In this document: one piece after another, positions 15,258 through 35,691 of the stretch
Layout: every line of letters begins with the position of its first letter
Numbering within the stretch: position 1 is the stretch's first letter
Assembly (NCBI RefSeq): GCF_010500835.1
Contig: NZ_JAAAMJ010000022.1
Coordinates: 1-52,288 of the forward strand
Length of the DNA stretch: 52,288 nt
Direction of reading: 5' to 3'
From: Aurantimonas aggregata
GTDB taxonomy: Bacteria; Pseudomonadota; Alphaproteobacteria; Rhizobiales; Rhizobiaceae
The notes under the pieces: generated by a model
The model's database searches: none
What the model was told of the DNA's origin: nothing
Seen by the model: the letters and a program-made list of their open reading frames with translations, nothing else
Position numbers and translations under genes: made by a program

Positions 15258-15277
15258 CGGTCGGTCTTTCGATACGG

Positions 15278-15976: not shown

Positions 15977-15993
15977 GATGTTTTCCTTGGGTG

Positions 15994-16013
15994 GGCGACC
16001 ATTGCCGGTCGCC
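15994..16013 (-). other. intercistronic hairpin
   Basis: GGCGACC-ATTGCC-GGTCGCC is a perfect 7-bp stem with a six-base loop between the FMN oxidase gene and the binding-protein gene. No T-tract follows, so it is more likely an mRNA stability or processing element than a terminator. Confidence 0.4.
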
Positions 16014-16034
16014 TGCATGGCTCGGGCGTCCGGC

Positions 16035-17354
16035 TCAGTCGCGCGGGCGGACCGGGGCGAGGTAGCTGGAGTCGAGGTCCTGCGGCCGCTTGACGCCGAT
16101 GAGGGCGAGGTCGCGGTCGATTTCCGCGCGCAGGATGCCGATCGCATGCGACACGCCGTCGGCGCCGCCGATCGCCGCCGCATAGAGGAAGGGCCGGCCG
16201 AGGAAGACGAAGTCGGCGCCGAGCGCCACCGCCTTCAGGACGTCGGTGCCGCGGCGAAGGCCGCTGTCGATCATCACCTTCATCGCGCCCTTCTCGGACG
16301 CGACCTCGGCGAGGCAATCGAGCGGGGCGACGGCGTAGTCGAGCTGGCGGCCGCCATGGTTCGACAGGATCACTCCGTCGACACCGCATTCACGGGCGAT
16401 ACGGGCGTCGCTGGCGGTCATGATGCCCTTGACGACGAGATTGCCCTTCCAGTTGCGGCGGATCGCCTCGACATGGGACCAGGCGAGTTCGTCGCGCTTC
16501 TTGGTGTTGCGCACCAGCTTCGACATCATCGGCGGCCCGCGCTCGGCGTCGGTGTTCTCGAAATGCGGCGTGCCGTGCTTCCAGTAGGTGCGCAGCACCG
16601 TGCCGAGCAGCCAGGACGGGGCGAGCGCGCTCTGCAGCATGACGTTCGGCGTCATCTTGATCGGCATCGAGAAGCCGCTGCGGATATTGTGCTCGCGGTT
16701 GCCGAGCAGCGGCGTGTCGCCGGTGACGACGAGGGTCTCGTAGCCGGCCGCACCGACCCGATCCACCAGCCGGTCGATGCGCGGCTGGTCGCCGGCGAGA
16801 TAGGCCTGGAACCAGGCATCGGGATTGGCGGCGTGGACGTCCTCGAGGCTGATCAGCGAGGAGCCGCTGAGGATCATCGGGATCTTAGCGTCGCGGGCGG
16901 CCTCGGTGAGCTGCAGGTCGGCGCGGTAGGCGATGAAGGCGGCGCCGCCGAGCGGCGCGATGCCGAAGGGCGAGGAATAGTGTTTGCCGAACAGGGTGAC
17001 GCCCTGGTCGCGGCCGGACACGTCGACGAACATGCGCGGCAGGAAGCGGTGCTCGGCGAAGGCGTCGCGGGCGGCGCGCAGCGATGCGCCGGTCTCGACG
17101 GCGCCGGAGACGTAGCCGAAGACCATGCGCGGCAAATGGCGTTTCGCGTGGCGCTCGAAATCGTCGAGAGCGAGGAGGTCGCGGAACTTGCGCGGCGTCG
17201 GCTTCTGCGGCTGCGGCAGGCCGGCGCCCGGATCGGCGCGGGTTTCACTGGCCGGGGCGGTCGTTTCGGCAGGCGCTGCGGTCGGCGCGGCCGGGCTCGG
17301 CGAGGGGGCGGCCTTGGGCGCATCGCCCGCCCGTCTCATTGTATCAACTTCCAT
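16035..17354 (-). CDS. FMN-dependent 2-hydroxyacid oxidase/dehydrogenase (LldD family)
   Basis: Flavoprotein of 439 residues that oxidises a 2-hydroxyacid to a 2-oxoacid. The catalytic site SNHGGRQLD with H333 is intact, as are the FMN-phosphate region MIDSGLRRGTDVLKA and the Lys in LVVKGIM. An N-terminal extension of about 55 residues, low-complexity Ala/Pro/Thr, precedes the domain start (FRDLLALDDFERHAKR). It is the first gene of the tetronate operon. Since no LtnD- or DenD-like dehydrogenase is present, it is the best candidate for making 2-oxo-tetronate; that role is inferred. A GGGAGG site precedes ATG 17354. Its promoter carries a GntR-type palindrome. Confidence 0.9.
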   Translation of the reverse strand: MEVDTMRRAGDAPKAAPSPSPAAPTAAPAETTAPASETRADPGAGLPQPQKPTPRKFRDLLALDDFERHAKRHLPRMVFGYVSGAVETGASLRAARDAFAEHRFLPRMFVDVSGRDQGVTLFGKHYSSPFGIAPLGGAAFIAYRADLQLTEAARDAKIPMILSGSSLISLEDVHAANPDAWFQAYLAGDQPRIDRLVDRVGAAGYETLVVTGDTPLLGNREHNIRSGFSMPIKMTPNVMLQSALAPSWLLGTVLRTYWKHGTPHFENTDAERGPPMMSKLVRNTKKRDELAWSHVEAIRRNWKGNLVVKGIMTASDARIARECGVDGVILSNHGGRQLDYAVAPLDCLAEVASEKGAMKVMIDSGLRRGTDVLKAVALGADFVFLGRPFLYAAAIGGADGVSHAIGILRAEIDRDLALIGVKRPQDLDSSYLAPVRPRD

Positions 17355-17372: not shown

Positions 17373-17406
17373 CTATCGTCCTCACGCCTACACATTGTCA
17401 ACAATA
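17373..17406 (-). promoter_or_regulatory. promoter of the tetronate operon with GntR-type operator
   Basis: On the minus strand the palindrome ATTGTTGACAAT (17395-17406) contains a consensus -35, TTGACA (17397-17402). After 18 bases comes GATAGC (17373-17378), a weak -10. A second GTTGAC lies 14 bases upstream. The palindrome fits the TNGT-N-ACNA form recognised by FadR-type GntR regulators and is identical to sites at 21195 and 30342. Binding would block the -35. Confidence 0.6.
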
Positions 17407-17467
17407 TCGTCAACATCCTTCGGCGGCGCATTCAGGCCGTGGCGAGGTCGGACAGGCGACGGTGGGC

Positions 17468-17492
17468 GGGGCGGCCCTTCTCGGACCGCCCC
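17468..17492 (-). terminator. GC-rich hairpin after the DapA-like operon
   Basis: GGGGCGGCCC and GGACCGCCCC (one mismatch) enclose a five-base loop, 15 bases beyond the stop of the DapA-like gene. On the minus strand no clear U-tract follows; read on the plus strand a short GTTT does. It is probably a terminator for the minus operon. Confidence 0.4.
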
Positions 17493-17506
17493 GTCGTTTC
17501 AGATCG

Positions 17507-18442
17507 TCAGAATGCCGCCCGACGGTCGGTGCGGGCAAGCCTTGCGAGCAGGCGCTCGACATCGGCCTTGGTGGCGGCGCTGAGCTTCGGCCCCGGCGTG
17601 CGCAGCGTGTCGTTTGCGATCGCCCCGCGCCTGGCCAGGATGTACTTGCGGACCGACAGGCCGATCACCGGCTGCTGCTCGTAGCGCAGCAGCGGCAGAT
17701 GCGCGTCGAACAGGTCCTGCGCCGCGTCGATATCGCCGGCGAGGCTCATGTCGACGACATCGCGCAGCATCTCCGGGAAGGCGTAGCCGGTCATGGCGCC
17801 GTCGGCGCCGCGCTGCATCTCGAGTTCGAGGAACAGCGCGCCGTTGCCGCAGAGGATCGAGACGTGACGGAGCGAGCCGTCGCGCTCCCAGTCGCGCAGC
17901 GCCGAGATCTTGTCGAGGCCGGGCCAGTCCTCGTGCTTCAGCATCACGCAGGAGGGGCTGTCGTTGATGATCCGCTTGATGACGCCCGGCGTCATCTGGA
18001 CGAGGGTCGCCTGCGGATGGTCCTGCAGGACGAAGGGGATGTCCGTGCCGATCTGGGCGATCGCCTGGGCGTAGTAGCCGACGATCTGGTCGTCGGTGCG
18101 CATCGAAGAGGGCGGTGCGATCATCACGGCGGCGGCGCCGGCCGCCATCGCCTCGCCGGCGAGGCGCCGCATGGCGGCAAAGCCCGGCGCAGAGACCCCG
18201 ACGATGATCGGCCGGCTACCGGCGCGGGCGATCACCTGGCGGACGATCTGCAGCGATTCCTCGGGCTCGAGCTTCTGCGCCTCGCCCATGATGCCGAGGA
18301 TGGTCAGCCCGTCGGAGCCGGCCTCCCAGTAGAAGTCGGTCATCCGGTCGACCGAGGCGGCGTCGAGCGAGCCGTCGGGCAGGAAGGGCGTGGGCGCGAT
18401 GGCGAAGACGCCCCTGGTGTCGGAAGAAAGCATGTCTGTCAT
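17507..18442 (-). CDS. dihydrodipicolinate synthase family lyase (DapA-like)
   Basis: Class I aldolase-fold protein of 311 residues. The Schiff-base Lys is K169 in CVMLKHED. The region that normally holds the proton-relay Tyr (Y-N-x-P) reads LQDHPQ, with Asp-His instead of Tyr-Asn, so it is not a true lysine-pathway DapA. The N-terminus GVFAIAPTPFLPDGSLD and the GEAQKLEPEE motif (in place of G-T-T-G-E) also mark a catabolic subgroup. It is probably a 2-oxo-3-deoxy-sugar-acid aldolase or dehydratase, inferred from neighbours. It lies three bases after the RraA-like gene in an SDR-RraA-DapA operon. Confidence 0.85.
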   Translation of the reverse strand: MTDMLSSDTRGVFAIAPTPFLPDGSLDAASVDRMTDFYWEAGSDGLTILGIMGEAQKLEPEESLQIVRQVIARAGSRPIIVGVSAPGFAAMRRLAGEAMAAGAAAVMIAPPSSMRTDDQIVGYYAQAIAQIGTDIPFVLQDHPQATLVQMTPGVIKRIINDSPSCVMLKHEDWPGLDKISALRDWERDGSLRHVSILCGNGALFLELEMQRGADGAMTGYAFPEMLRDVVDMSLAGDIDAAQDLFDAHLPLLRYEQQPVIGLSVRKYILARRGAIANDTLRTPGPKLSAATKADVERLLARLARTDRRAAF

Positions 18443-18445
18443 ATC

Positions 18446-19141
18446 CTATTTCGAGGCGTCGTAACGCGCCTTGGTCTCGGCATTCATCGGGTAGAGGCCG
18501 GGCAGGCTGGCGCCGTTCTCCACTTCCTCGACGATCCAGGCTTCCATGCGCTCCTGCTCGGGGCCTTCGGCGAGGACGTCGTCGAGCAGCGCTTTCGGGA
18601 TGACCACGGCACCGTCGTCGTCGGCGACGATGACGTCGTCGGGGATCACCGCGACGCCGCCGCAGCCGATGGTCTCCTGCCAGCCGACGAAGGTGACGCC
18701 GGCGACCGAGGGCGGGGCGGCGAAGCCGCGGCTCCAGACCGGCAGGCCGGTGCGCGTGACGCCGGCGACGTCGCGCAGCACGCCGTCGGTGATCAGCCCG
18801 GCGACGTTACGCTTGGCCATGCGGGCGCAGAGAATGTCGCCGAAGATGCCGGCATCGGTGACGCCCATGGCGTCGGCGACGACGAGGCAGCCCTCCGGCA
18901 TCGCCTCGATGGCGGCCCTGGTCGAGATCGGCGAGCCCCAGGAGGCCGGCGTCGCCAGATCCTCGCGCGCCGGCACGAAGCGCAGCGTGAAGGCGGGGCC
19001 GACGAGGCGGGGCTGGCCCGGCCTGAGCGGTATGGCGCCGCGCAGCCAGATGTTGCGCAGGCCCTTCTTCAGAAGGATCGTGGTGATGGTGGCGGTCGAG
19101 ACATCCTTGAGGACGGCGATCGCTTCAGCGGTGAGTGTCAT
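18446..19141 (-). CDS. RraA-like protein (HMG/CHA aldolase family)
   Basis: Codes for 231 residues. The fold's metal/substrate motifs are present: DAMGVTDAGIFGDILCARMA followed by GLITDGVLRD, whose Arg-Asp pair is the signature of 4-hydroxy-4-methyl-2-oxoglutarate/4-carboxy-4-hydroxy-2-oxoadipate aldolases. RraA proper, the RNase E inhibitor, is shorter (about 160) and would not be expected in a catabolic operon. The C-terminal extension after VIVADDDGAVVIPK is typical of the catabolic subgroup. It probably cleaves a branched or 4-hydroxy-2-oxo acid to pyruvate or oxaloacetate; substrate unknown. It sits between the SDR and DapA-like genes. Confidence 0.83.
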   Translation of the reverse strand: MTLTAEAIAVLKDVSTATITTILLKKGLRNIWLRGAIPLRPGQPRLVGPAFTLRFVPAREDLATPASWGSPISTRAAIEAMPEGCLVVADAMGVTDAGIFGDILCARMAKRNVAGLITDGVLRDVAGVTRTGLPVWSRGFAAPPSVAGVTFVGWQETIGCGGVAVIPDDVIVADDDGAVVIPKALLDDVLAEGPEQERMEAWIVEEVENGASLPGLYPMNAETKARYDASK

Positions 19142-19156
19142 GTCGGTTCCCCTTGA

Positions 19157-19942
19157 TCAGATGCTCGGAACATAGCCGCCATCGACGCGGATGACGCTGC
19201 CGGTGACGTAGGACGACCGGGTCGAGGCGAGGAAGGCCACGACGTCGGCATATTCCTGCGGGTCGCCATAGCGGCCGAGCGGAATGGCGCCGGTGCTCTC
19301 GGCCACGACGCTCTCGAGGCTGCGGCCCTCGCGCTCGGCCTTCTTCTCGTCGAGGAAGCCGATGCGGCCCGTGGCGATGCGGCCGGGCAGGACGACATTG
19401 GCGGTCACGCCGTCGCGGCCGACTTCGCCGGCCAGCGTCTTCGACCAGCCGAGCAGCGTCGAGCGGAGCGCGTTGGAGAGGCCGAGATTGGGGATCGGCG
19501 CGACCACGCCGGACGAGGTGGAGGTGATGATCCGTCCCCAGCCGCGCTGGCGCATGCCGGGCAGCACGCAATCGGTGATGGCGAAGACGGAGAGCACCAT
19601 CGCCTCGAAATGCTTGCGCCAGAGATCGACGGGCTGGCCGGCGACGCCGCCGGGAGGCGGGCCGCCGGTGATCGACACGAGGATGTCGACGAGGCCGAGC
19701 TCGGCTTCGATGCGACGGACATTGGCGGAGACCACGTCGAGATCGGCGAGGTCCCAGGCAAGCGCCATGGCCTTGCCGCCAGCGGCCTCGATCTCGCCGA
19801 CGGTGCGCGCGGCGGCTGCTGCGTCGAGGTCGGCGACCGCGACCTTGACGCCTTCGCCGGCCAGCGTCGTGGCGATGCGGCTGCCGAGCCCGCCGCCGGC
19901 GCCGAGCACCAGGGCGGTCTTCTGTGCAATCCCGAGATCCAT
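19157..19942 (-). CDS. atypical SDR family protein lacking the Tyr-Lys pair
   Basis: Codes for 261 residues with Rossmann motif VLGAGGGLGSRIA and a normal SDR C-terminus (YVTGSVIRVDGGYVP). The catalytic YxxxK is absent: the corresponding stretch reads LGLSNALRSTLLGW, so Tyr is replaced by Leu and Lys by Arg. The NNAG-type loop reads SITGGPPPG. This LSNxxR subgroup is widespread and presumably uses other chemistry; that is recall. ATG 19942 is the only Met before the fold. It is first in the SDR-RraA-DapA operon and diverges from a LysR gene across 99 bases, so that regulator probably controls it. Confidence 0.83.
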   Translation of the reverse strand: MDLGIAQKTALVLGAGGGLGSRIATTLAGEGVKVAVADLDAAAAARTVGEIEAAGGKAMALAWDLADLDVVSANVRRIEAELGLVDILVSITGGPPPGGVAGQPVDLWRKHFEAMVLSVFAITDCVLPGMRQRGWGRIITSTSSGVVAPIPNLGLSNALRSTLLGWSKTLAGEVGRDGVTANVVLPGRIATGRIGFLDEKKAEREGRSLESVVAESTGAIPLGRYGDPQEYADVVAFLASTRSSYVTGSVIRVDGGYVPSI

Positions 19943-20041
19943 GCAAACACTCCTTCTGCGAATCGGGCGGAGGGTGCGTGTCTCGAACACAAAGATGAAG
20001 TACGGTCTCCTTCGTTCACCCTGAAGGAAATGTTGGTTCCC

Positions 20042-20950
20042 ATGGATAGCAGCCATCTGGCGACCCTCGTCCGCGTCGCGGAGAAAGGCTCGTTCGTCGC
20101 GGCGGCAAACGATCTGGGCATCACCGCGACGGCGGTGGCGCAGCGTATCCGAGCGCTGGAGTCGGAGATCGGCGTGGGGCTGGTCGCCCGCTCGGGACGG
20201 ACGGTGCGGCTGACCGAAGCGGGCCATGCGGTGATGGCGCGCAGCCGCGAGGTGCTGCGGCAGATCAGCGAGCTGCGGACCGCGGCGCTGGGCGGGGAGA
20301 TCGTCGGGGAGTTACGGGTGGGGGCGATCGCCACGGCGCTGACCGGGCTGTTCCCGCAGGTGCTGGAGCGCCTGACCGAGCGCCATTCGGGGCTCGACCT
20401 CTATCTCGAGCCGGGCACGTCCGCCGGGCTCTACGACCGGGTCGTGTCAGGGGCGCTGGATGTGGCGGCGCTGGTGCGCCCGTCCTTCGACATGCCGAAG
20501 GCGATGAGCTTCCATCTGTGGCGGCGCGAGAAACTGGTGCTGCTGGTGGCGGCCGACGACCGGCGCACCGACGTGGCGGCGATCCTGCGCACCTCGCCCT
20601 TCATCCGCTACGACCGGCGGCAATGGGGCGGACGTCTGGCGGCGTCGTTCCTCGACGCCATCGGCATCGCGCCGAAGGAGCGCTTCGAACTCGACGCGCT
20701 GGACGCCATCGCGATGATAGTGGCGCGCGGGCTCGGCGTGTCGCTGGTGCCGGACTGGGCGGGGCCCTGGCCGGACGGGGTGCGTCGCCTGACGCTGCCG
20801 GAGCCAGCGCCGGTGCGCGAGCTCGGGTTCCTGCAGCTCGGCAATTCCCCGCGGACGCATCTCGTCCGCGTGCTGATGGAAAGCGCCTGGGCCGTCGAGC
20901 CGCCGCCGCACCGCGCCGAAACCGGCGGCGGTGCTGCGTCTAGCGGCTGA
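20042..20950 (+). CDS. LysR family transcriptional regulator
   Basis: Codes for 302 residues. The N-terminal winged helix is canonical (LVRVAEKGSFVAAANDLGITATAVAQRIRALESEIGV, split here over about residues 7-43). An effector domain follows, with LRVGAIATALTGLFPQVL opening subdomain I and MIVARGLGVSLVPDWAG in the usual late position. ATG 20042 is chosen; ATG 20030 is in frame but lies too close to the AAGGA site. It is divergent to the SDR-RraA-DapA operon, the standard arrangement for a LysR regulator and its target. The gene converges on a 44-residue ORF with no gap. Confidence 0.92.
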   Translation: MDSSHLATLVRVAEKGSFVAAANDLGITATAVAQRIRALESEIGVGLVARSGRTVRLTEAGHAVMARSREVLRQISELRTAALGGEIVGELRVGAIATALTGLFPQVLERLTERHSGLDLYLEPGTSAGLYDRVVSGALDVAALVRPSFDMPKAMSFHLWRREKLVLLVAADDRRTDVAAILRTSPFIRYDRRQWGGRLAASFLDAIGIAPKERFELDALDAIAMIVARGLGVSLVPDWAGPWPDGVRRLTLPEPAPVRELGFLQLGNSPRTHLVRVLMESAWAVEPPPHRAETGGGAASSG

Positions 20951-21085
20951 TCAGTCGATCGAGCCGGGGAAGCGCATGCGGTATTCCATCTCGCGGCGGC
21001 GGGCTTCAACGATGCTCGAGCCGAAACCGGCGAGGGAAGCCTTCATGCGGGTGTAGAACGTCGTGGTGCGGGGGGTCTTGGACAT
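20951..21085 (-). CDS. 44-residue conserved-looking small protein
   Basis: Codes for MSKTPRTTTFYTRMKASLAG and a further 24 residues ending EYRMRFPGSID. The ATG is preceded by a good GGAG site (ACGGAGACG). The protein is basic and helical, with no membrane segment or signal. Its RREMEYRMRFPG tail is reminiscent of very small rhizobial proteins, but no family is claimed. About 110 bases upstream lies the third copy of the GntR-type palindrome (21195-21206), and a GTCTC/GAGAC inverted repeat sits just before the start (about 21091-21106), so it may be regulated. Confidence 0.5.
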   Translation of the reverse strand: MSKTPRTTTFYTRMKASLAGFGSSIVEARRREMEYRMRFPGSID

Positions 21086-21193
21086 TGTTCGTCTCCGTCT
21101 CTTGTACGAGACAGAACCTAGGCGCTTTCGCACCGCACAGTCAGATGCTGCACTGCATGGGACCCATGCGGTCAGTGGGCAGATGGTTGGCGG

Positions 21194-21207
21194 GATTGTT
21201 GACAATC
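21194..21207. promoter_or_regulatory. GntR-type operator, third copy
   Basis: GATTGTTGACAATC is a 14-bp palindrome (six-base arms around TG) identical over 14 bases to 30341-30354 and over 12 bases to the site at 17395-17406. It lies upstream of the 44-residue ORF and downstream of a broken phage gene. No good -10 is visible nearby on either strand, so its target is uncertain. Confidence 0.5.
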
Positions 21208-21242
21208 GCCGGGCACGAATGCGCTCGGCGACCCGATCGCGT

Positions 21243-21648
21243 TCAGCCTAGGCCGCCCGCCTCGCCTTCTCCGCCCGGATCAGCCTCATCATCGTCGCGG
21301 GATCCGGCAAACGGGCCGAAGAAGGCTTCGAGGCGGTCGAGGTCATCGGGGCTCATGTTGGTCAGGTCGACAGTTGGGATCGGGCCCCCGCCGGGTTCGG
21401 CATGCTGGTGGGACTGCGTCGGCTTACCCCAGCCTTAGTCGAGAACGTGGTTCGCCGCCGTGGCGCGGGCGGCTGCAGGCGCAGCCTTGTCGATCATGAT
21501 CGACGTCAGGACGCGGATAGCCATCTCCGTATGTCGTATGATCGCGGGCTATCTCGGTCAGCGTGCGCTTCTGCTGAGCGTTGATTTTCGTGGACGAGCC
21601 CGACCTGCGACCGGCGCTTGGTCGCTTTCCGCCGCGAGCCGTGTTTGA
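21243..21648 (-). pseudogene. broken phage terminase-small-subunit-like gene
   Basis: Reading the minus strand with two corrections gives a coherent protein: a basic RGGKRPSAGR start, INAQQKRTLTEIARDH, then a frame change into TEMAIRVLTSIMIDKAAPAA, RATAANHVLD, an in-frame TAA at 21435-21437, GWGKPTQSHQHAEPGGGPI and DLTNMSPDDLDRLEAFFGPF. The pattern (RGGxRxGAGRxxGS, then a helix ending AAANxxLDxGxGKP) is that of small-terminase-like phage proteins. The frameshift coincides with a 7-bp tandem repeat at 21527-21540. The expected start codon is replaced by TAA. The gene is clearly dead. Confidence 0.6.
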
Positions 21649-21705
21649 TTACTTTTGAAAATTTCGTTTCGCGCTTGAACCGGTTTCAGCGCTTCGTGAG
21701 GTGCG

Positions 21706-22548
21706 ATGTCAGAGCCTGTAGGGCAGCGTTTCAGCCAGTTGTACATGCGTCACTCCGAACTGCTTCCCGATAGTGGTCGTATGCGGAACCGACTCAGTTC
21801 CCTCTATTGCTCCGTCAGGGGTGATCTCGAAACATTCGGAAGCCTGATGAGTCGGGAGCTTGGCCTGCAGCTAGGACAATACAATTATCCGTCGTCCTGG
21901 CTGCGGATAATGAATGCAATAGAGCTCCGTGATGTTCTGGACTCAGTTACGATTCGCTATCAGTGCATTGACCATTATGATGAGCATCAGCAAAGACGAG
22001 AGCGAAAGAGCTTTTTGGCTGAAGCTCGCCGAATATTTCAGGAAGAGCAGGTCCGCTATCGGATTGACGATGAAGCTGGCGTTCACTTCGCTCAGGACAG
22101 CGAATTCGAGAGGATGCGCGTTTCCACGATCGCATCTCTGACCGATGCTCGCTTCGATGGAGTTCGGGCCGCGTTCGACGAGGCGTTCGTCTGTCTTGAT
22201 CGCCAGCCCGTAGACGGAAAGGGCGGGCTGCGGTCAGCATTCTTTGCGTCCGAGGCTCTTTTCCGACTGATGTTTCCGACAGCGCATCAACTAAGTGGGG
22301 GGGAGGTGCGGAAGCATCTGCAGCCGTTGGTGGACGCGGTATATGCCGCACAGAAGCCGGCGATCTATCTGGCTCAGAAGCAGGTGCAATCCTTCACGGA
22401 TTGGATCGATGGCGCTCACTTTTACCGACATGAGCCTGGGACAGAAGATCCGGCTCAGCCACCCCTCGAGCTAGCCATCTTCATGATCTCGCAGGCGGGC
22501 GGGTTCATCCGTTGGCTGGCGTTCCTCGATGCCAAGCGTCCGCGCTGA
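21706..22548 (+). CDS. hypothetical protein, possible HEPN/AbiJ-type C-terminal domain
   Basis: Codes for 280 residues. Base and codon use are noticeably less GC-rich than in flanking genes, suggesting recent acquisition. There is no signal or membrane segment. The C-terminal 90 residues have the layout of AbiJ/HEPN-like helical domains: a helix with ASEALFRLMFP, then DAVYAAQKPAIYLAQKQ, an FYRHEPG motif (R-H pair as in HEPN nucleases) and a final helix FMISQAGGFIRWLAFLD. The N-terminal half is not recognised. A defence (abortive infection) role is possible but weakly supported. It stands alone on the plus strand in an accessory patch. Confidence 0.6.
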   Translation: MSEPVGQRFSQLYMRHSELLPDSGRMRNRLSSLYCSVRGDLETFGSLMSRELGLQLGQYNYPSSWLRIMNAIELRDVLDSVTIRYQCIDHYDEHQQRRERKSFLAEARRIFQEEQVRYRIDDEAGVHFAQDSEFERMRVSTIASLTDARFDGVRAAFDEAFVCLDRQPVDGKGGLRSAFFASEALFRLMFPTAHQLSGGEVRKHLQPLVDAVYAAQKPAIYLAQKQVQSFTDWIDGAHFYRHEPGTEDPAQPPLELAIFMISQAGGFIRWLAFLDAKRPR

Positions 22549-22720
22549 CAACTGTCTGGGTGACATTGGGCTGAGCATGGCAGCCGAACTAGCCAAATGC
22601 CTCCCGACACTCGGGATCGCCCTCACCACGCCCTTGATGCCGCCTCGCGCCCTGGCCTCGGCGAGGATGCGGCGGCGCTCGGCACACGATCTGCAGGCAA
22701 TGTTGCCTCGCCCCTCAATT
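22549..22720 (-). pseudogene. possible phage-type small CxxCAERR protein remnant
   Basis: The minus strand here is open and reads ACRSCAERRRILAEARARGG, IKGVVRAIPSVGRHLASSAA. The C-x-x-C-A-E-R-R-x-x-L pattern recalls small zinc-ribbon-like phage proteins. No start codon is found near the expected N-terminus, so it is either a fragment or uses an unusual start. It overlaps no convincing plus-strand gene. Confidence 0.25.
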
Positions 22721-22792
22721 CGCTTTTCTCTTGTCTTGGGTAAAGGCCTATTGGAGCATCTGGCTGAAGATGAGGCGAGGAACAATCTCACA

Positions 22793-23143
22793 ATGGACCC
22801 GACTCTTGTTCCGCTGCTATCCGCCTTGGCAGGTGCCGTCATCGGCTCAACCACCACACTCATTACACTGCTCGTACAGACCCGGGCGGCGGAGAGACGA
22901 CCTCGCAGAGAGTTCTTGACAAAGCTCGCCGTCGAAGAAAGGAACAAGCAAGTCGAATTGCCCAACTCACCGGCAATGAATTTGCTGTTCCACCAGCGCT
23001 CGCCTATCTCGCGCATTTTCAGCGTGTCATGGATGTGCTTGAGCAAGGCCGCCTCACACCCTAAAGCTAGAGAGCTTGCGGCGCAGAATGCCGAGTTGAT
23101 GCAAGAATTGGTAGAAACCCACGAAAATCTGCCAGCAGGCTAG
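22793..23143 (+). pseudogene. small membrane-anchored protein with two compensating frameshifts
   Basis: ATG 22793 starts MDPTLVPLLSALAGAVIGST, one N-terminal membrane segment followed by a basic helical region. In the nominal frame residues from about 55 to 90 look random. In the -1 frame the same DNA reads QLTGNEFAVPPALAYLAHFQ and RVMDVLEQGRLTP, a sensible helical sequence, after which the original frame resumes as KARELAAQNAELMQELVE. Two small indels, near 22966 and 23064, must therefore have scrambled a central block. The family (short N-anchored helical proteins of unknown function) is recalled from pattern only. It could still be translated to the normal stop. Confidence 0.55.
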
Positions 23144-23280
23144 CAGGAAGAACGCCGCCTAGAGGCCCGCCGCTCACGACTTGTGCTACAGACTAGGCAC
23201 GTTTTCGGCATCCGGCCTTCCGTTCGGCTATCTGCCGGCGGCGCGGTGAACCTCTGGCCCTGCTGATTCTAGCGAGAATA

Positions 23281-23781
23281 ATGTCGATGCAGCCTCTGAA
23301 GCTTTCTGTTCTCTTCGTGTTGGGGACAACCTCTTGGACCAGCGCGAACGCCGTCGAGTGCGAAGCCGTGATCTCAGAGCTACGACGCGCTCCCCTACCT
23401 GATTTTATCGTAAAGCCTATGGAACATGCCCCTGTAGGATATTGGGACATCGAGGGTATTGATGATATCCAGGCTGGGATAGCGTGCTCACAAGACGGTA
23501 TGTTTTCAAACATCGGCGTCAGTGTTGTCGAAGGGCAGCAATTTTCATACGAGTACCTCGAAAACATGATGCGGGCAGTGATGGCTGCGGTTGTCCCTGG
23601 AATCAGCGATCCTGAAGCACTCTTCGCTAAGTTAAACAGAATTTCTGCGGAAGACGCTGCCAGAAGAGAAAAAGAAAGCGGCGCGTTCTATGGAGCTGCA
23701 TACGAGACGATTGGCGGCTACACCTTGGAAATAAACTACTCCAACATGGGCGGCAGACGCTTTGGCGTAGGACTGGACTGA
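23281..23781 (+). CDS. hypothetical secreted or periplasmic protein
   Basis: Codes for 166 residues. The N-terminus is a Sec signal (basic, hydrophobic VLFVLGTTSW, ending SANA|VEC), so the mature protein is probably periplasmic. It has two cysteines (VECEAV and IACSQDG) that could pair. The mature part mixes acidic strands with one helix rich in Ala and Met (YLENMMRAVMAAVVPG). No family is recognised. Codon use is less GC-biased than in neighbouring housekeeping genes. No companion gene is evident on either side. Confidence 0.62.
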   Translation: MSMQPLKLSVLFVLGTTSWTSANAVECEAVISELRRAPLPDFIVKPMEHAPVGYWDIEGIDDIQAGIACSQDGMFSNIGVSVVEGQQFSYEYLENMMRAVMAAVVPGISDPEALFAKLNRISAEDAARREKESGAFYGAAYETIGGYTLEINYSNMGGRRFGVGLD

Positions 23782-24410
23782 GCAGTACCGCCGTCAAAAT
23801 TGCCGGACAAAAGTAGCCGCTTCGAAATTTGCCGCCGAGGCCCGCTTGGATCTTCAAGCTCCTGCCGTCTCGTAGATCGCACGATCATGAGGCTGGGGCC
23901 CCAGGAGACCGCGTCACATTAGTTGTTCCTTAAGCGGGAGCGATCATGGCGACGTTTACCTCGCTACACCACCAACCCGCTCCATCGGCCGGCGGCGCTC
24001 CGCTTGGCGCTCTGCCCAGCTGAAGTCCTGATTGTCGGGGTCGTTTGCGGGGATGGCATCTGCGGCGCGCCATGATCCGATGCCGTCCTGCGGCTCGAAT
24101 GATGCGTTTGATGCACTCTCCCCGATCTTGCCAACAGCCATACCCGAAACAGCGGCCGAGCCGCTGGCGCAGTTCCATAACAGGCGCCGAGCGCCGGGAC
24201 TCCCTGCAACCCGGCCCTTCCCGAAGCAACGCGGAAGCATGACCATGGGTTATGCGGCGGCGCGCCCTAGATCCGGCTTCCCGACGCTGCGGCTGCGGAT
24301 CCTGCCGCGCAGCGGCGCCGGTGCGCGAGGCGCGCGCCGTCTTGAAATCGATGCCGGCGCGTTGCTACCCAGCATGCACGCCCGGCTCACGAACCGGCAA
24401 GGCGAGGCGC
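23782..24410. other. 629-base stretch with no supportable gene
   Basis: Both strands have only short, compositionally implausible frames. A minus-strand frame at 23956-24246 ends with a charged helix (DFSWAERQAERRRPMERVGG) that may be a coding relic, but no start or family could be assigned. Confidence 0.4.
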
Positions 24411-25448
24411 ATGTGGGGCGATCTTTCGACGACGGTTCTTATCGTAGCGTTTCTGGCGGCCGGCGGGGTCATCTTCTTCTCGGGGCTGCGGATGGCTGGC
24501 CTCGCGGACAAGATTGCGGACCGGACCGGGCTCGGAGAGGCGATCATCGGCGCCGTCCTGCTGGGCGCCGCGACCTCGCTCAGCGGCATCATCGTGTCGG
24601 TCACGGCGGCCCTCGACGGGCGCGCCTCGCTGGCCTTCGCCAACAGCGTCGGCGGCATCGCGGCCCAGACGGTGTTCCTGGCGGTGGCCGACATGTTCTA
24701 TCGCAAGGTCAATCTGGAACATGCCGCGGCGGATCTCGGCAACGTGTTCCAGGGCATCGTCCTGATGGTGTTGCTGACGTTGCCCTTCGTGGCGCTGACG
24801 ACGCCCGAATACACGATCTGGGCGGTGCATCCGGTGTCCTTCGCCATCCCGCTGGTCTATGCGGCCGGGCTGGTTGCCGGCCGGCGGGTGCACGAAGCGC
24901 CGATGTGGACGCCCGTCGAGACCAACGCCACAAAGACCGACCAGCCGGAGGAAGAGGACGCCGAGAGCAAGGCCGAGAGCACGCTTCGCCTCTTCCTGAC
25001 CTTCGGTCTCCTGATGCTGCTGATGGGTGTCGCGGGCTACGTCATCGCCAAGACGGCGTCGGAGCTCGCCGACCGGGTGCAGATCTCCGACACGCTGGTC
25101 GGCGCCCTCGGAACCGCCTACGTCACCTCGATGCCGGAACTGGTGACGACCGTCGCCGCCGTCAGGAAGGGCGCGCTGCAGTTGGCGGTCGGCGGCATCA
25201 TCGGCGGCAATACGTTCGACACGCTGTTCCTCACCGCTTCCGACGTCGCCTATCGCGATGGGTCGCTCTATCACGCGGTCGGCGACCAGGACTATTTCTG
25301 GATCGTCTCGGCCCTGCTGATGACGGGACTCCTGATCGGCGGCCTGATCCTGCGCCAGCGCCAAGGGCCCGGACGGATCGGGACCGAGAGCCTCCTCCTC
25401 CTGCTCATCTACGCCGGGGCCGTGGCGCTCCAGGTCGTCGTCGGGTGA
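24411..25448 (+). CDS. calcium/sodium:cation exchanger family membrane protein
   Basis: Codes for 345 residues with about ten membrane segments. Both alpha-repeats of the CaCA family are recognisable: GAVLLGAATSLSGIIVSVTA (about 44-63) and LVGALGTAYVTSMPELVTTV (about 225-244), each with the conserved small-residue/Ser/Glu pattern although the first repeat has Ser-Gly where Pro-Glu is usual. A charged cytoplasmic loop of about 30 residues (EEEDAESKAES) separates the halves. The frame is open upstream, but ATG 24411 follows a purine-rich site (GGCAAGGCGAGG) and begins the first membrane helix. The transported ion is not decidable; Ca2+/H+ or Na+ is likely. Confidence 0.8.
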   Translation: MWGDLSTTVLIVAFLAAGGVIFFSGLRMAGLADKIADRTGLGEAIIGAVLLGAATSLSGIIVSVTAALDGRASLAFANSVGGIAAQTVFLAVADMFYRKVNLEHAAADLGNVFQGIVLMVLLTLPFVALTTPEYTIWAVHPVSFAIPLVYAAGLVAGRRVHEAPMWTPVETNATKTDQPEEEDAESKAESTLRLFLTFGLLMLLMGVAGYVIAKTASELADRVQISDTLVGALGTAYVTSMPELVTTVAAVRKGALQLAVGGIIGGNTFDTLFLTASDVAYRDGSLYHAVGDQDYFWIVSALLMTGLLIGGLILRQRQGPGRIGTESLLLLLIYAGAVALQVVVG

Positions 25449-25668
25449 CGACGCTGGCCGACGGCTGGAGAACAAGCACCGGCGCCAGGCGACATCGCCG
25501 GTTCGCCTGCCGGACCCTGCCATCGGCACGGCTGTCATCACTATCCGATATCTGCGGCAGACACCGTCGTCTCGACCAATGCGCCTGACCGGTTTCGTTC
25601 CAGCGTGATGGTGCGCCGAAGCCGTGACCGAGAATTCTCCGCTTCGGCGGCCTAGAGAGAGTAAGTGA

Positions 25669-26316
25669 ATGAACCACTCGAACGGCGACCACGTCATCAC
25701 GGAGCGCCCCTATTTCCTGAAGACGCTCGCCGCGATCGGGCTCCTCGGATGTGCGGTGCTGGTCATCGGCATGTTCATCGCGCAGGCGATGGTCCCGGAT
25801 TATCACTGGGTCTCGGACACGATCAGCGACCTCGCCGCCGGCGAATGGGAGATCGTCATGGACGTTTCCCTCTACGGCTTCGCCGCCGGCCTCTTCGCGG
25901 TTTCCCTCGCGGCGGCGCATGCGCATCTGGGCGGGGCAGGCTGGTCCATCGGCGTCTTCTCGCTCGCCATTCTCGCGGCACTCGTCGTCATCATCGGATC
26001 ACGCAACGAATATGGCGACGGCGACGATGACGGCGTGGTGATCCACATCTACCTCGTCTATGGGATCGGCGCGCTCTTCACGCTGGCGCCGCTCTGCATG
26101 GCGAGCGCCATCGGCGAGCGGAGCGCCGTGACGCGACGCATCCTGATCGGGCTGATGGTGGCATGGGTGGTCCTCTGCCCGGTCTTCCTCTTGTCGCCGA
26201 CCAGCATCGACGGCCTGCTGGAGCGGGTGCTGGGCCTGATCGCCTGCGCGATCGTCGTCACGCTCTGCGTCTTCTTCTTCCAGCGAGGGCAGGATGCCCG
26301 CGATCTCGACGACTGA
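25669..26316 (+). CDS. DUF998 family integral membrane protein
   Basis: Codes for 215 residues with six hydrophobic segments. The family pattern HWVSDTISDLAAGEWEIVMD after the first helix and the spacing of later helices fit DUF998, whose function is unknown. A cytoplasmic acidic loop (YGDGDDDG) lies between helices three and four. A purine-rich site (AGAGAGAG) precedes ATG 25669. It is alone on the plus strand, 220 bases after the exchanger gene, and converges on the GntR regulator gene. Confidence 0.75.
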   Translation: MNHSNGDHVITERPYFLKTLAAIGLLGCAVLVIGMFIAQAMVPDYHWVSDTISDLAAGEWEIVMDVSLYGFAAGLFAVSLAAAHAHLGGAGWSIGVFSLAILAALVVIIGSRNEYGDGDDDGVVIHIYLVYGIGALFTLAPLCMASAIGERSAVTRRILIGLMVAWVVLCPVFLLSPTSIDGLLERVLGLIACAIVVTLCVFFFQRGQDARDLDD

Positions 26317-26376
26317 TACCTGGCGCCGTCGCCGCCGATGCGGCTAGCCTGCCGGGCCGGCAGGGACCCGACCGCC

Positions 26377-27102
26377 TCAACCCTCCTCGTCGCCGGCGAA
26401 GCGGGAACGGTAGGTCTTGACGTAGTAGTTCTTGGCCGGGGCGAGATGGTTGCGGCAGAGCTCGACGAGGGCGGCGCGGTCGCCGCCGCGGACGGCGGCG
26501 ACCATCTTGGCATGGTCCTCGGCCGCCCACAGGAGGTAGGGCTTGTCGTTCAGGAAGATGTGCCGGTAGGCATGCGACTTCTGGGCGAAATTGGCGATCG
26601 CCTCGATCAGCGCCTCGTTGCCGCAATGGGCGAAGAGCTTGCGGTGGAAGTCGATATTGTCGCGGAAGACCCGGCGCTGGTCGCCCGACAGGATCGCTTC
26701 GTGGTGGGACTTCTGGATCGCGTCGAGCTCGGCGATGGCGGCCTCGGGCAGCGGCAGCGGGATGAGCGAGGCGGCATGCGCCTCGATCAGTTCGCGCACG
26801 CTGTTGATGTCCTCGACTTCCTTGGCGTCGTAAAGCCGGACGACGGCGCCGCGGTTGCGGTAGCGCTCGACGAGGCCGAGCCGCTCGAGTTCGGCGATCG
26901 CATGGCGCACCAGATGGCGCTTGGCGCCGAAGCGGAGGGCAATTTCCTCCTCGACCAGCCGCTCGCGCGGGTGCAGGCGGCCGAAGACGATGTCCTCCTC
27001 CAGCCGGGTGACGATCTCGGCGGAGATGTCCTCGCCGCTGCGTCGCTTGCCGCCGGGCCGTGCCGGGTCGTCGCGGGTGTCCTTGGCCAGATGGGACATC
27101 AT
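26377..27102 (-). CDS. GntR family transcriptional regulator, FCD (FadR-type) domain
   Basis: Codes for 241 residues from ATG 27102, which has a strong AAGGAAG site; an in-frame GTG 13 codons upstream (27141) is an alternative. The winged helix runs over about residues 22-85 (ISAEIVTRLEEDIVFGRL, LRFGAKRHLVRHAIAELERL). The all-helical FCD effector domain shows the Asp/His metal ligands (NIDFHRKLFAH and the later RNHLAPAKNY). FadR-type regulators bind TNGT-N-ACNA palindromes; three copies of such a site occur in this window. It lies just downstream of tctCBA and probably senses the imported or derived acid. Binding is inferred. Confidence 0.9.
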   Translation of the reverse strand: MMSHLAKDTRDDPARPGGKRRSGEDISAEIVTRLEEDIVFGRLHPRERLVEEEIALRFGAKRHLVRHAIAELERLGLVERYRNRGAVVRLYDAKEVEDINSVRELIEAHAASLIPLPLPEAAIAELDAIQKSHHEAILSGDQRRVFRDNIDFHRKLFAHCGNEALIEAIANFAQKSHAYRHIFLNDKPYLLWAAEDHAKMVAAVRGGDRAALVELCRNHLAPAKNYYVKTYRSRFAGDEEG

Positions 27103-27198
27103 CAGGTCTTCCTTCGCACGCCGCTCCGAGATTTGCTCCACCCATAACCTCTTAGCGGGCCCAGCGGCTAGGGATCCATCCGCCGAGCTTTTCCAGAC

Positions 27199-28746
27199 TT
27201 ACTCGCGGCTTCCCGCGACGTCGCCGCCGGCGGGCTCGGCGCCCTTGACCGGCTTGGTACGGAACCGCCGGGCCAGCGAGCCGAAGAGCGGCGTCGCCTG
27301 CAGGATCGAAAGCAGCGCGAAGGCCAGCAGCGTCGCCGAGATCGGGTTCTCGATGAACACCGTCCACTGGCCGCCGCCGATCAGCAGCGACTGCTGCAGC
27401 GTCGTGTCGAGGATCGGGCCGAGGATGAGGCCGATGACCAGCGGCGGCGTCGGGATGCGGAAACTGTCGAAGGCAAGGCCCAGCATGCCGAAGGCGATCA
27501 TCAGCCCGATATCGAAGACCGCGTTGTTGATCGCATAGGCACCGATCACCGACAGCACCACGATGACCGGGCCAACGACGCGGTTCGGGATCTTGGTGAC
27601 GGCGACGCAGGCCCGGGTGAACAGCAGGCCGACGAGGAACAGCGCGACATTGGCAAACAGCACCGCCCAGAGCAGCGTGTAGGTGACGTCGCCATAATCC
27701 GTCATCAGCGACGGGCCCGGCAGGATGCCGTGCACCATCAGGCCGCCGAGCAGCACGGCCGTCGAGGCCGAGCCGGGAATACCGAGCGCGATGGTCGGGA
27801 TCAGGGCGCCGCCGACGACGGCGTTGTTCGCCGCTTCCGGCGCGACGATGCCGGCGGGGTAGCCGGTGCCGAACTCGGCCTTGTTGCGCGAGAACCGCTT
27901 GGCCTCGTTATAGGCGAACCAGGAGGCGGTATCGCCGCCGGTGCCGGGGATCAGGCCGACGAAGACGCCGATGACCGAGGAGCGCAGGCTGTTCGGCAGC
28001 ATCTTCAGGAACTCCGGTCCCGTCGGCAGCATCCGGTCGGTGACGTTGGAGACCCGGGCGTTCTTGTTGGTGTTGCCCTGCATGATCAGGCGCACCGCCT
28101 GCGGGATCGAGAACAGGCCGATCAGCGCGACCGTGAAGTCGATGCCGCCGAAGAGCTCGAGGAAGCCGAAGGAGAAGCGTGGCGTGCCGGTGGTGAGGTC
28201 CATGCCGACCATGCCGAGCAGCAGGCCGATGGCACCGGACATCAGGCCGAGAATGGTCGAGCCCTGCGACAGCGAGCCGATGATGGTGATGCCGAGGACG
28301 GCGATGGCGAAGATCTCCACCGGGCCGAAATTGAGGACGAGGCGCCCGAGCAGCGGCGCCACCGTCAGCAGCACGATCGCCGAGATGACGCCGCCGATCA
28401 GCGAGGCGGTGAGCGACAGGCCGAGCGCCTTGCCGGCCTGGCCCTTCTGCGCCATCGGATAGCCGTCGAGGACGGTGGCGGCAGCGGCCGGCGTGCCGGG
28501 CGTGCGCAAGAGGATGGCGGCGATCGAGCCGCCGTACATCGCCGCCAGATAGAGCGAGGCGAGCAGCGCCAGGCCGGTCTCCGGCCGGAAGGAATAGGTC
28601 AGCGGCAACAGCAGCGCGATCGCCATCGTCGCCGACAGGCCGGGCATCGCGCCGACGAACATGCCGACCGTGACGCCGATCAGGATGGCCGCGAGATTGG
28701 CCGGTTCGACGACGTTGGCGAGACCGATCCAGAAGAAGGATTCCAT
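27199..28746 (-). CDS. tctA: tripartite tricarboxylate transporter, large permease TctA
   Basis: Large membrane subunit of a TctCBA importer, 515 residues with about twelve hydrophobic segments. Family hallmarks are GVTVGMFVGAMPGLSATMAIALL near the N-terminus, LLRTPGTPAAAATVLDGYPM and the second-repeat GLIPGTGGDTASWFAYNEAKR. It works with TctB in the inner membrane, driven by an ion gradient, on a ligand presented by TctC. It is the last gene of the tct operon, 11 bases after tctB, and is followed by the GntR gene on the same strand. Substrate unknown; an aldonate or tetronate fits the neighbours better than citrate. Confidence 0.93.
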   Translation of the reverse strand: MESFFWIGLANVVEPANLAAILIGVTVGMFVGAMPGLSATMAIALLLPLTYSFRPETGLALLASLYLAAMYGGSIAAILLRTPGTPAAAATVLDGYPMAQKGQAGKALGLSLTASLIGGVISAIVLLTVAPLLGRLVLNFGPVEIFAIAVLGITIIGSLSQGSTILGLMSGAIGLLLGMVGMDLTTGTPRFSFGFLELFGGIDFTVALIGLFSIPQAVRLIMQGNTNKNARVSNVTDRMLPTGPEFLKMLPNSLRSSVIGVFVGLIPGTGGDTASWFAYNEAKRFSRNKAEFGTGYPAGIVAPEAANNAVVGGALIPTIALGIPGSASTAVLLGGLMVHGILPGPSLMTDYGDVTYTLLWAVLFANVALFLVGLLFTRACVAVTKIPNRVVGPVIVVLSVIGAYAINNAVFDIGLMIAFGMLGLAFDSFRIPTPPLVIGLILGPILDTTLQQSLLIGGGQWTVFIENPISATLLAFALLSILQATPLFGSLARRFRTKPVKGAEPAGGDVAGSRE

Positions 28747-28757
28747 CGCGAGGTTCC

Positions 28758-29213
28758 TCAGAAGGCCGGATAAAGGGGGATCGACAGGTTCAGGAACCAG
28801 ACGAAGATGCCGAAGATGACGGCGGTGACCGCCACGATGGTCGACACCGCCGTCACCAGTCCGATCGGACGCAGCACGGCCAGGGGAATCGCCAGGAAGA
28901 GCGGGGTCGCGATGAGATAGCCGATGCGGGTGATGCTGAAGGCGTACAGGATGATCAGCGCCAGGAAGCTCGCCCCGATGACCAGGCTGCGCCAGTCGGT
29001 CGGGGTGTCCGAGCCGGGCCCGGCTTCGGCCAGAGCGGTTTTCGGGCGCAGCCGCGACCAGACGACCTGGGCGATCGCGGCCGCGGCGAGCAGGATGATC
29101 ACGACGCTGAGGAGGTCGGGCAGCCGCGCGGCGGTGGCGGGATAGGCCGCGGCCTCGCTCCTGAAAAATAAGGCAAGCGCAATGGCGGCGAGGGCGACGA
29201 CGATCTGACCCAT
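28758..29213 (-). CDS. tctB: tripartite tricarboxylate transporter, small permease TctB
   Basis: Codes for 151 residues with four hydrophobic segments, the usual size and layout of TctB. The N-terminal helix (QIVVALAAIALALFF) is followed by a short periplasmic loop and helices ending TIVAVTAVIFGIFVWFLNLSIPLYP, the recurring C-terminal pattern of the family. Sequence is poorly conserved in general, so the call rests on size, topology and position between tctC and tctA. It is 69 bases from tctC. Confidence 0.85.
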   Translation of the reverse strand: MGQIVVALAAIALALFFRSEAAAYPATAARLPDLLSVVIILLAAAAIAQVVWSRLRPKTALAEAGPGSDTPTDWRSLVIGASFLALIILYAFSITRIGYLIATPLFLAIPLAVLRPIGLVTAVSTIVAVTAVIFGIFVWFLNLSIPLYPAF

Positions 29214-29282
29214 CTCGGGATTCCTGGATGCTGACGGAAGGAGGAAGCGGCGCGCCCGAAGACGCGCCGCCGGTGCGTCGCC

Positions 29283-30263
29283 TTACTGGGCGGCCTGCAC
29301 GTCGTCCTTGATCTCCGCCCAGAGAGCCTGGAACTCGCCCTCCTGCTTCTTCAGGAAGGCGGCATACTCGTCACCCGGGATGAAATCGACCATCAGCCCC
29401 TGCTTGTCGGCGGCGGCCTGGAAGTCGGGATTCTCCATCACCTTCGCGAGGGCGTCGATGATCTGCTGGCGGGATTCCTCGGGGAAATCGCCCGGGCCGC
29501 TGTAGCCGCGCGAGGAACCGGCGACGAGATCGTAGCCGAGTTCCGTGGCGGTCGGCACGTCCGGCAGGCTTTCGAGGCGCTCCGCCGAGAAGACCGCGAG
29601 GGGGCGCAAATTGCCTTCCTGGATCTGCGAGTAGGTGACGCCGACATTGGTGAAGCTGGCGTCGATCTTGCCGCCCATGGCGGCCGTCCAGGACGGGCCG
29701 TCACCCTGGAACGGGACCTTCTGGAGCTGGACGCCGGACTCCCGCTCGAACTGCAGCGAGGTGAAGTAGTCGTCGCCGCCGACACCGGAATTGCCGACGG
29801 TCACGGTGCTCGGGCTTTCCTTGGCCGCGTTGACGAAGTCCTCGAACGTCTGGAACGGCGAGTCGGCCGCGACGACGGCGATGCCCGGATCGGTGACGAT
29901 GTTGGCGATCGGGGTGATCTCGTCGATCGTGTAGGTGATCGACGGGTTCATGATGTAGTTGGTCTGCAGCATCGGCGTGTTGGTGATGCTGACCGTCGAG
30001 CCGTCCTTCGGGGACTGCTTGGCAAGGCGCGTCCAAGCGATCGCGCCGGTGGCGCCGGGAATGTACTGGTTGATGAAGTTGACGCCGAGCTCCTCGGCGA
30101 GGAACGGGTGGACGAGCTGGGCGAGGGCGTCCGAGCCACCGCCGGCCTTGAAGCCCTGCAGGACGTTGATGTCGCTGGCGGCGGTATATTTTCCGTCCTG
30201 CGCAAGGGCAGGGGAAACGAACGCCGTCGTGGCGGCAAGAGCCGCGGCGAGTACCAATTTCAT
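29283..30263 (-). CDS. tctC: tripartite tricarboxylate transporter, solute-binding protein TctC
   Basis: Bug/TctC family periplasmic receptor, 326 residues. ATG 30263 begins a clear Sec signal (LVLAAALAATTAFVSPALAQ); the frame is open upstream but no earlier Met gives a signal. The family core is intact: GFKAGGGSDALAQLVHPFLA, the ligand loop IPGATGAIAWTRLAKQ, VGNSGVGGDDYF and VPFQGDGPSWTAAMGG. It presents a small carboxylate to TctAB. The acids bound cannot be read directly. Co-occurrence with an aldonate dehydratase suggests sugar acids. Its promoter has a GntR-type palindrome upstream of the -35. Confidence 0.92.
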   Translation of the reverse strand: MKLVLAAALAATTAFVSPALAQDGKYTAASDINVLQGFKAGGGSDALAQLVHPFLAEELGVNFINQYIPGATGAIAWTRLAKQSPKDGSTVSITNTPMLQTNYIMNPSITYTIDEITPIANIVTDPGIAVVAADSPFQTFEDFVNAAKESPSTVTVGNSGVGGDDYFTSLQFERESGVQLQKVPFQGDGPSWTAAMGGKIDASFTNVGVTYSQIQEGNLRPLAVFSAERLESLPDVPTATELGYDLVAGSSRGYSGPGDFPEESRQQIIDALAKVMENPDFQAAADKQGLMVDFIPGDEYAAFLKKQEGEFQALWAEIKDDVQAAQ

Positions 30264-30307
30264 AGTGAACCTCCCAGTTCTGTCATGCGCTTCTCGGCGC
30301 GAGCGGC

Positions 30308-30354
30308 ACCATAGGCAGTCGGTTTCGTCGTTGTCAAACAGATTGTTGACAATC
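30308..30354. promoter_or_regulatory. tctC/dehydratase divergent promoter region with GntR-type operator
   Basis: For tctC (minus strand) TTGACA (30332-30337), an 18-base spacer and TATGGT (30308-30313) make a good promoter. The palindrome GATTGTTGACAATC (30341-30354) lies just upstream and itself contains TTGACA (30346-30351) on the plus strand, facing the dehydratase gene. One bound repressor could therefore govern both directions. The 12-bp core is identical to the site before the FMN oxidase gene at 17395. Confidence 0.65.
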
Positions 30355-32182: not shown

Positions 32183-32199
32183 CCATGCGAGGGCCGATC

Positions 32200-35646: not shown

Positions 35647-35691
35647 CGAGACCTCGGGCACGGGATGCTTCCCAGGCCCTATAGCACCGAA

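Follow-up and report, generated by a model that had tools for sequence, protein, structure and literature searches.

How are the uptake and breakdown of sugar acids tied together in Aurantimonas aggregata? In positions 1 to 52,288 of contig NZ_JAAAMJ010000022.1 (assembly GCF_010500835.1; this whole stretch of 52,288 nucleotides is called the window), genes for a tripartite transporter (tctCBA), an IlvD-family dehydratase and a tetronate (otn) pathway occur together with three copies of a 12-bp word, ATTGTTGACAAT, and a gene (gntR) for a GntR-type regulator with an FCD domain. The question is what the word does and which protein reads it. The comparisons described below make it very likely that the word forms the stronger portion of an operator read by the local FCD-type GntR protein, which would jointly repress uptake and two breakdown routes.

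The word is unique to one locus of the genome

Three exact copies of ATTGTTGACAAT were found in the window (Table 1), as in an earlier sequence-only reading of this DNA, which had the count and copies 2 and 3 right; copy 1 lies at 17394-17405, one base from the 17395-17406 given there. In dinucleotide shuffles of the window the mean count was 0.00, and 0 of 100 shuffles held three copies. The genome scan that the sequence-only reading had asked for returned three exact matches in 4,861,770 bases (95 contigs), all of them within the window rather than scattered at random, and the reversed pattern gave 0 matches in the same genome. A chance origin of the three copies was rejected in view of this whole-genome uniqueness. 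The word is an A/T-rich pseudo-palindrome, ATTGT-TG-ACAAT, with 5-bp arms and 2 nt between GT and AC, and each of the three copies shows the TKGT/ACMA boxes of the consensus given in PMC4494728 (A-TTGT-TG-ACAA-T). As claimed earlier, the identity of copies 2 and 3 extends over 14 bases, gATTGTTGACAATc.

The word is kept beside the regulator in relatives

In a family set of 151 genomes the regulator was found at E <= 1e-40 in 11, the own genome included. All three exact copies in the genome of G137 (GntR 92% identical) lie within about 7 kb of gntR, and the same holds for both copies of G124 (69%), both copies of G041 (66%) and the single copy of G110 (39%). Orthologous places are kept for copies 1, 2 and 3 in G137, for 1 and 3 in G124 and for 3 in G041; in alignments across relatives the words are intact, and the flanks drift. 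In G067 (GntR 47%) the variant ATTATTGACAAT occurs twice, next to gntR and immediately ahead of the ilvD homologue. The conservation check named in the sequence-only reading thus found the operator kept beside orthologous genes.

Named genomes were scanned with an alignment of the regulator, which gave 254 relatives; the best 80 of the 254 loci were used, and genes were mapped in 32 distinct loci of the 80. The two scans are partly overlapping samples, as L058, L062 and L057 come from the same genomes as G124, G041 and G153. The 80 loci held 29 exact and 30 one-mismatch matches of the word (palindromic one-mismatch words being counted on both strands); the reversed word gave 0 at up to one mismatch, and ten shuffled words gave 2 exact and 17 one-mismatch matches between them. 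A copy within one mismatch was present somewhere in 44 of the 80 loci and in each of the 16 closest ones (L057-L072), where it was exact in 14 and took the form ATTATTGACAAT in L063 and L067. The position between divergent tctC and ilvD is occupied by an exact or one-mismatch copy in 14 of these 16; the exceptions were L064, with a copy before tctC near a contig end, and L071, with a copy before a DctP transporter gene about 1.4 kb from gntR. In L078, L083, L086, L103, L113, L115 and L117 (five Bosea, one Rhizobiales and one Rhodoplanes) the site stands directly between divergent gntR and ilvD, an arrangement that is the closest tie of the regulator to the word. L060, L062, L064 and L105 have additional copies, exact or one mismatch off, ahead of enolase-family dehydratase genes. 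Sugar acids are the theme common to the genes beside the copies.

A local GntR regulon of uptake, dehydratase and tetronate genes is thus a well-supported prediction, because the word is genome-unique, its copies lie near gntR in relatives and the tctC/ilvD position is kept.

In loci lacking the word an alternative site was sought in 14 loci, about one per genus, among which L094, L104 and L121 have a one-mismatch word. The candidates were rejected: the top shared words, for example TGGTCGACGA in 6 of the 14, look like GC-rich background.

Most operators are longer than the word

Most operators extend beyond the 12-mer, as a weaker unit abuts it at exactly 12 bp, a feature that the sequence-only reading had overlooked. 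For this test 33 of 44 sites were kept and 11 near-duplicates or weak ones were dropped (three of L057, two of L061, the second of L063 and one each of L066, L073, L079, L081 and L086). The 12 bp immediately before the word (offset -12, either orientation) matched it on average at 8.15 of 12 positions over the 33 sites; the mean was 3.25 at offsets 20-45 (z 13.7) and 3.54 with shuffled flanks, the largest of 5000 being 4.45. At least 8 matches were present in 25 of the 33 sites. Offsets +3, -3, -9, +9 and -15 were also raised (z 10.8, 4.6, 5.8, 5.7 and 6.5); we attribute this to self-similarity within the word. A mean of 8.18 came from the 22 sites without the tctC/ilvD label (three of which precede tctC), and the unit on the opposite side of the word was weaker (5.18, z 5.4). 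Weaker extra half-sites 7-12 nt from the centre have been described in FadR-subfamily groups (PMC4494728; this and the other papers are cited from excerpts), so the second unit is a strict form of a known feature. A halomonad locus (L084 7930-7985) has three successive near-copies of the 12-bp unit, each abutting the next.

The second unit also meets the tctC promoter. TTGACA lies 4 bp after the word in 12 of 14 tctC sites, and TA follows 16-18 bp after TTGACA in 10 of the 14. The only promoter-like pair found in the window scans is that of tctC, which starts in the second unit of copy 3.

With one mismatch allowed, ATTGTTGACAAT gains five more places elsewhere in the own genome. Four of them lie inside open frames of 1161-3000 bases, and their abutting 12 bp match at only 2-4 of 12 positions. 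The fifth, GTTGTTGACAAT at C87:152161-152172 (= L008 1501-1512), is outside any open frame longer than 516 bases, has an abutting second unit of 8/12 and is flanked by an amidohydrolase gene and an SMP-30/gluconolactonase-like gene; it is a possible distant member of the regulon.

The regulator and the attribution of the word to it

The GntR/FCD gene named by the sequence-only reading was confirmed, with an ATG at 27102, an N-terminal GntR winged helix (PF00392, 1.6e-12) and a C-terminal FCD domain (PF07729, 4e-20), both over the cut-off. The protein scored under the cut-off of all nine NCBIfam models listed, the PhnR-type model TIGR03338 included (90.9 bits, cut-off 271.5). Its closest homologue among the named relatives is from Aurantimonas endophytica (94% identical), and its best profile match among solved structures was 6z74 (2.4e-18), which we take to be Atu1419, a VanR-type FCD/GntR protein. 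Four FCD histidine columns were counted and hold His in 80, 76, 80 and 80 of 80 homologues; conserved histidines of this kind make up the metal site of FCD domains, and the pattern would fit a metal-dependent carboxylate pocket. The earlier label of a FadR-type site held for the FCD (FadR/VanR) subfamily and for the TKGT/ACMA boxes; it did not hold for the spacing, as the gap between GT and AC is 2 nt and not the 3 nt of FadR proper (PMC4494728), nor for the nearest solved relative, which is Atu1419. If a locus is taken to have a site whenever a copy within one mismatch occurs in any part of it, the residue aligned with FadR Arg35 is Glu in 38 of the 44 site-bearing loci and Asp in 34 of the 36 site-free ones. 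In PMC4494728 this position is linked to the K of the TKGT box, and Asp there favours G/C.

Across the 151 family genomes the word occurred 83 times exactly, in 55 genomes, and the reversed word 15 times. Leaving aside the copies of G000, G041, G137, G124 and G110, 72 remain. A GntR/FCD-type gene was present within 5 kb of 26 of these and not of the other 46; in 17 of the 26 cases its open frame is within about 250 bp. By our rough estimate, about 5% would be expected near an FCD gene given some 21 FCD genes per genome as here. The word is a generic FCD site with a 2-nt gap, because other FCD-type genes with different recognition helices adjoin the same 12-mer, and the regulator is named here on the basis of synteny.

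The three copies could then be operators of another FCD regulator, with the local GntR protein a bystander or sharing the sites. We regard this as unlikely. The own genome does have 21 FCD-domain genes, and the 26 of 72 copies just mentioned adjoin regulators whose helices are unlike the local one; however, the local gntR is alone on the contig of the three exact copies, the other 20 FCD genes lying on other contigs, and its closest homologues travel with the site in Aurantimonadaceae, Acuticoccus, Rhodobacterales and others.

That the word is repeated chiefly as a conserved promoter element (a TTGACA -35), not as an operator, is highly improbable. TTGACA does lie inside the word, and the likely tctC -35 TTGACA adjoins it. 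However, conservation covers all 12 bases, 5-bp arms included, and the genome has no exact copy elsewhere; copy 2 is directed away from the nearest open reading frame (ORF), and in the Bosea-type loci different flanks surround the word, which stands there between gntR and ilvD. The promoter scan found no -10 partner for the TTGACA within the word at any of the three copies, and nothing around copies 1 and 2. The sequence-only reading had two copies overlap a TTGACA -35 element; this is not supported, as TTGACA is part of the 12-mer and so present in all three, with no -10 partner found.

That either LysR regulator encoded nearby (at about 20042-20950 and 34702-35661) uses the sites is hardly credible: LysR genes are in the window and one stays beside catabolic genes in G137, G124, L060 and L066, but the site persists in L061, L062, L065 and L067, where neither LysR has a match at E 1e-15, and LysR sites usually contain T-N11-A. 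The constant presence of gntR in the 80 loci is no argument here, as gntR defined the set.

Several observations weigh against the assignment of the word to the local GntR protein as the operator of a single regulon. An exact copy is found nowhere in the genomes of G067 and of G073, G074, G089 and G148 (GntR 37-42%), and the two exact copies of G010 (GntR 41%) are both far from gntR. Among the matches listed, G067 alone of the genomes with 37-47% GntR proteins has a ATTATTGACAAT variant beside gntR. No copy within one mismatch was present in 36 of the 80 loci, and the Glu/Asp split tracks phylogeny, so that its Fisher value overstates what the counts can bear as a probability. Fewer than 8 matches in the second unit were counted at 8 of the 33 sites, the poor ones including L078, L117 and L115 (4-6/12) and copy 2 of the window (7/12). 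The scans found no promoter pair in the FMN (flavin mononucleotide) dehydrogenase or ilvD directions. The differing helices of FCD-type proteins encoded beside the word in other genomes count on this side too. Finally, nothing visible connects copy 2 with uptake or catabolism. The single regulon of uptake and two catabolic branches proposed earlier remains a prediction, supported by the uniqueness of the word, the relatives and the homologue loci.

Genes around the copies

Copy 1 precedes the FMN oxidase/otn operon and copy 3 lies between tctC and the dehydratase gene, both as described before. The coordinates of the features are given in Table 1.

Table 1. Operator units, promoter and genes of the proposed regulon in the window
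Feature	Position	Strand	Remarks
otnI-like isomerase	11856..12641	-	TIGR03234 255 bits, NF043033 240 bits; both under cut-off
otnC, 3-oxo-tetronate 4-phosphate decarboxylase	12665..13309	-	NF043034 311.5 bits, cut-off 250
otnK, 3-oxo-tetronate kinase	13309..14586	-	NF043035 533 bits, cut-off 350
Asp/Glu racemase-family protein	14580..15281	-	PF01177
ModA-like solute-binding protein	15278..16183	-	PF13531; ORF overlaps FMN dehydrogenase gene, true start probably later
FMN-dependent 2-hydroxyacid dehydrogenase/oxidase, first otn-operon gene	16035..17354	-	PF01070
Operator copy 1, main unit	17394..17405	-	about 40 bp before FMN dehydrogenase ORF start; kept in G137, G124
Second unit of copy 1, direct, GATGTTGACGAT, 9/12	17406..17417	-	abuts main unit
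44-amino-acid ORF after operator copy 2	20954..21085	-	ORF only
Weak second unit of copy 2, 7/12	21183..21194	+	abuts main unit
Operator copy 2	21195..21206	+	about 110 bp before 44-amino-acid ORF on - strand; kept in G137, L057
gntR, GntR/FCD regulator, proposed operator binder	26377..27102	-	PF00392, PF07729; ATG at 27102, alternative GTG at 27141
tctA, tripartite transporter large membrane protein	27199..28746	-	PF01970
tctB, small membrane protein	28758..29213	-	PF07331
tctC, periplasmic binding protein	29283..30263	-	PF03401; likely start ATG at 30263
Predicted tctC promoter, TTGACA-N18-TATGGT	30308..30337	-	promoter scan
Second unit of copy 3, inverted, 8/12	30330..30341	-	contains tctC -35 TTGACA (30332-30337)
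Operator copy 3, main 12-bp unit	30342..30353	+	between divergent tctC (-) and ilvD (+)
IlvD/EDD-family sugar-acid dehydratase	30406..32136	+	PF00920/PF24877
Aldehyde dehydrogenase, next gene after ilvD	32185..33612	+	PF00171

On the - strand tctC is followed by tctB, tctA and gntR. The dehydratase scored over the cut-off of NF004784 and under that of the L-arabinonate dehydratase model NF009559, and it matched a solved L-arabinonate dehydratase (9evv) at 1.2e-158. For the four-carbon acid (otn) pathway, OtnK and OtnC were over their cut-offs and the OtnI-like protein under its own. Family models and solved relatives together indicate sugar acids as substrates, without singling out one acid.

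In G124 (L052 6418-8069, L058 19871-20479) the genes for the FMN dehydrogenase, binding protein, racemase-like protein and isomerase are kept. An otnK match was not found there in the 20 kb searched, and an otnC-like match lies nearby on the opposite strand; the kinase of G124 may have been replaced by another. The ModA-like gene between the FMN dehydrogenase and racemase-like genes has the same place in G137, G124 and L071.

The 44-amino-acid ORF after copy 2 is present in 3 of 8 genomes of the genus (own included) and has no Pfam match at E 0.1. From copy 2 through this ORF (20954-21205, - strand) the window and G137 are near-identical, and the DNA past the operator differs; the leader of the ORF contains the palindrome GCATGGGTCCCATGC. 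The roughly 5 kb between gntR and copy 2 (21300-26320) has a lower GC content (0.57 at 22-24 kb) and holds a Na/Ca exchanger-family ORF (24252-25448), a DUF998 ORF (25669-26316) and ORFs without a Pfam match. This region looks like an insertion hot spot, because the spacing of gntR and copy 2 is much shorter in G137 (about 0.7 kb) and in L057 (about 2.7 kb).

Proposed mode of regulation

We propose that a dimer of the regulator binds ATTGT-TG-ACAAT and that, at most promoters, a second dimer probably occupies the weaker unit abutting at 12 bp, possibly in a cooperative manner. The bound protein would sit over or beside the promoters of three presumed operons, tctCBA-gntR, ilvD with the aldehyde dehydrogenase gene and FMN dehydrogenase-otn, and would act on all of them by repression rather than activation. 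At tctC, where the second unit covers the -35 element, this would offer a simple way to block polymerase. The presumed ligand, a sugar acid or an early product of it, would enter the FCD domain and release the repressor, and uptake and the two breakdown routes would then be induced together.

A broader proposal is put forward tentatively, and we would sooner doubt than back it. The regulator may belong to an FCD-GntR orthologue group, found in Alphaproteobacteria and some halomonads, with a 24-bp operator made of a strong and a weak unit that abut in either orientation and hold two dimers about one helical turn apart. Glu/Asp at the FadR Arg35 position would mark the use of TTGT-N2-ACAA; FCD paralogues would share the strong unit, and the weak unit and flanks would select the binder.

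A testable operator is hereby supplied for a group of sugar-acid regulators. The predicted regulon links a tripartite transporter with an IlvD-family dehydratase and the tetronate pathway, and the range of possible substrates is smaller as a result. The double unit with its fixed 12-bp offset, together with the Glu/Asp column, could help explain how cross-talk is avoided among FCD paralogues with the same core.

Comparison with known systems

No description of this regulon or regulator group was found in open-licence PubMed Central papers. The 12-mer and three forms of it, looked for in the literature, brought up two papers, whose titles concern LacI promoters in a cyanobacterium and a virus. 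The instance is new, and the type of bacterial gene control is well known. The excerpts cited below offer four comparisons.

Similar in site architecture are the FadR-subfamily groups of PMC4494728, which share the TKGT/ACMA boxes, the 2 nt between GT and AC, weaker extra half-sites and single sites in divergons. In contrast to them, most sites here carry a near-complete 12-bp extra unit at a fixed 12 bp, and the excerpt does not name the present orthologue group.

Atu1419 of Agrobacterium fabrum is a VanR-type FCD/GntR repressor of hydroxycinnamate genes (PMC7797058). As here, an FCD protein goes with a short palindrome that recurs across several promoters of a single catabolic cluster; its site is a different one, however (ATGTATACAT), and 190 bp separate the copies within one promoter, whereas the units here abut at 12 bp.

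NanR of Escherichia coli (PMC8012715) is likewise an FCD/GntR protein; it serves an acidic sugar and places several dimers on adjoining repeats, as is proposed here. It uses three GGTATA direct repeats, in contrast to the one strong and one weak unit, in either orientation, seen here. VdtR of Brucella (PMC10580937) controls four-carbon sugar-acid catabolism (D-erythronate and L-threonate), again in an alphaproteobacterium, but belongs to the DeoR and not to the GntR family.

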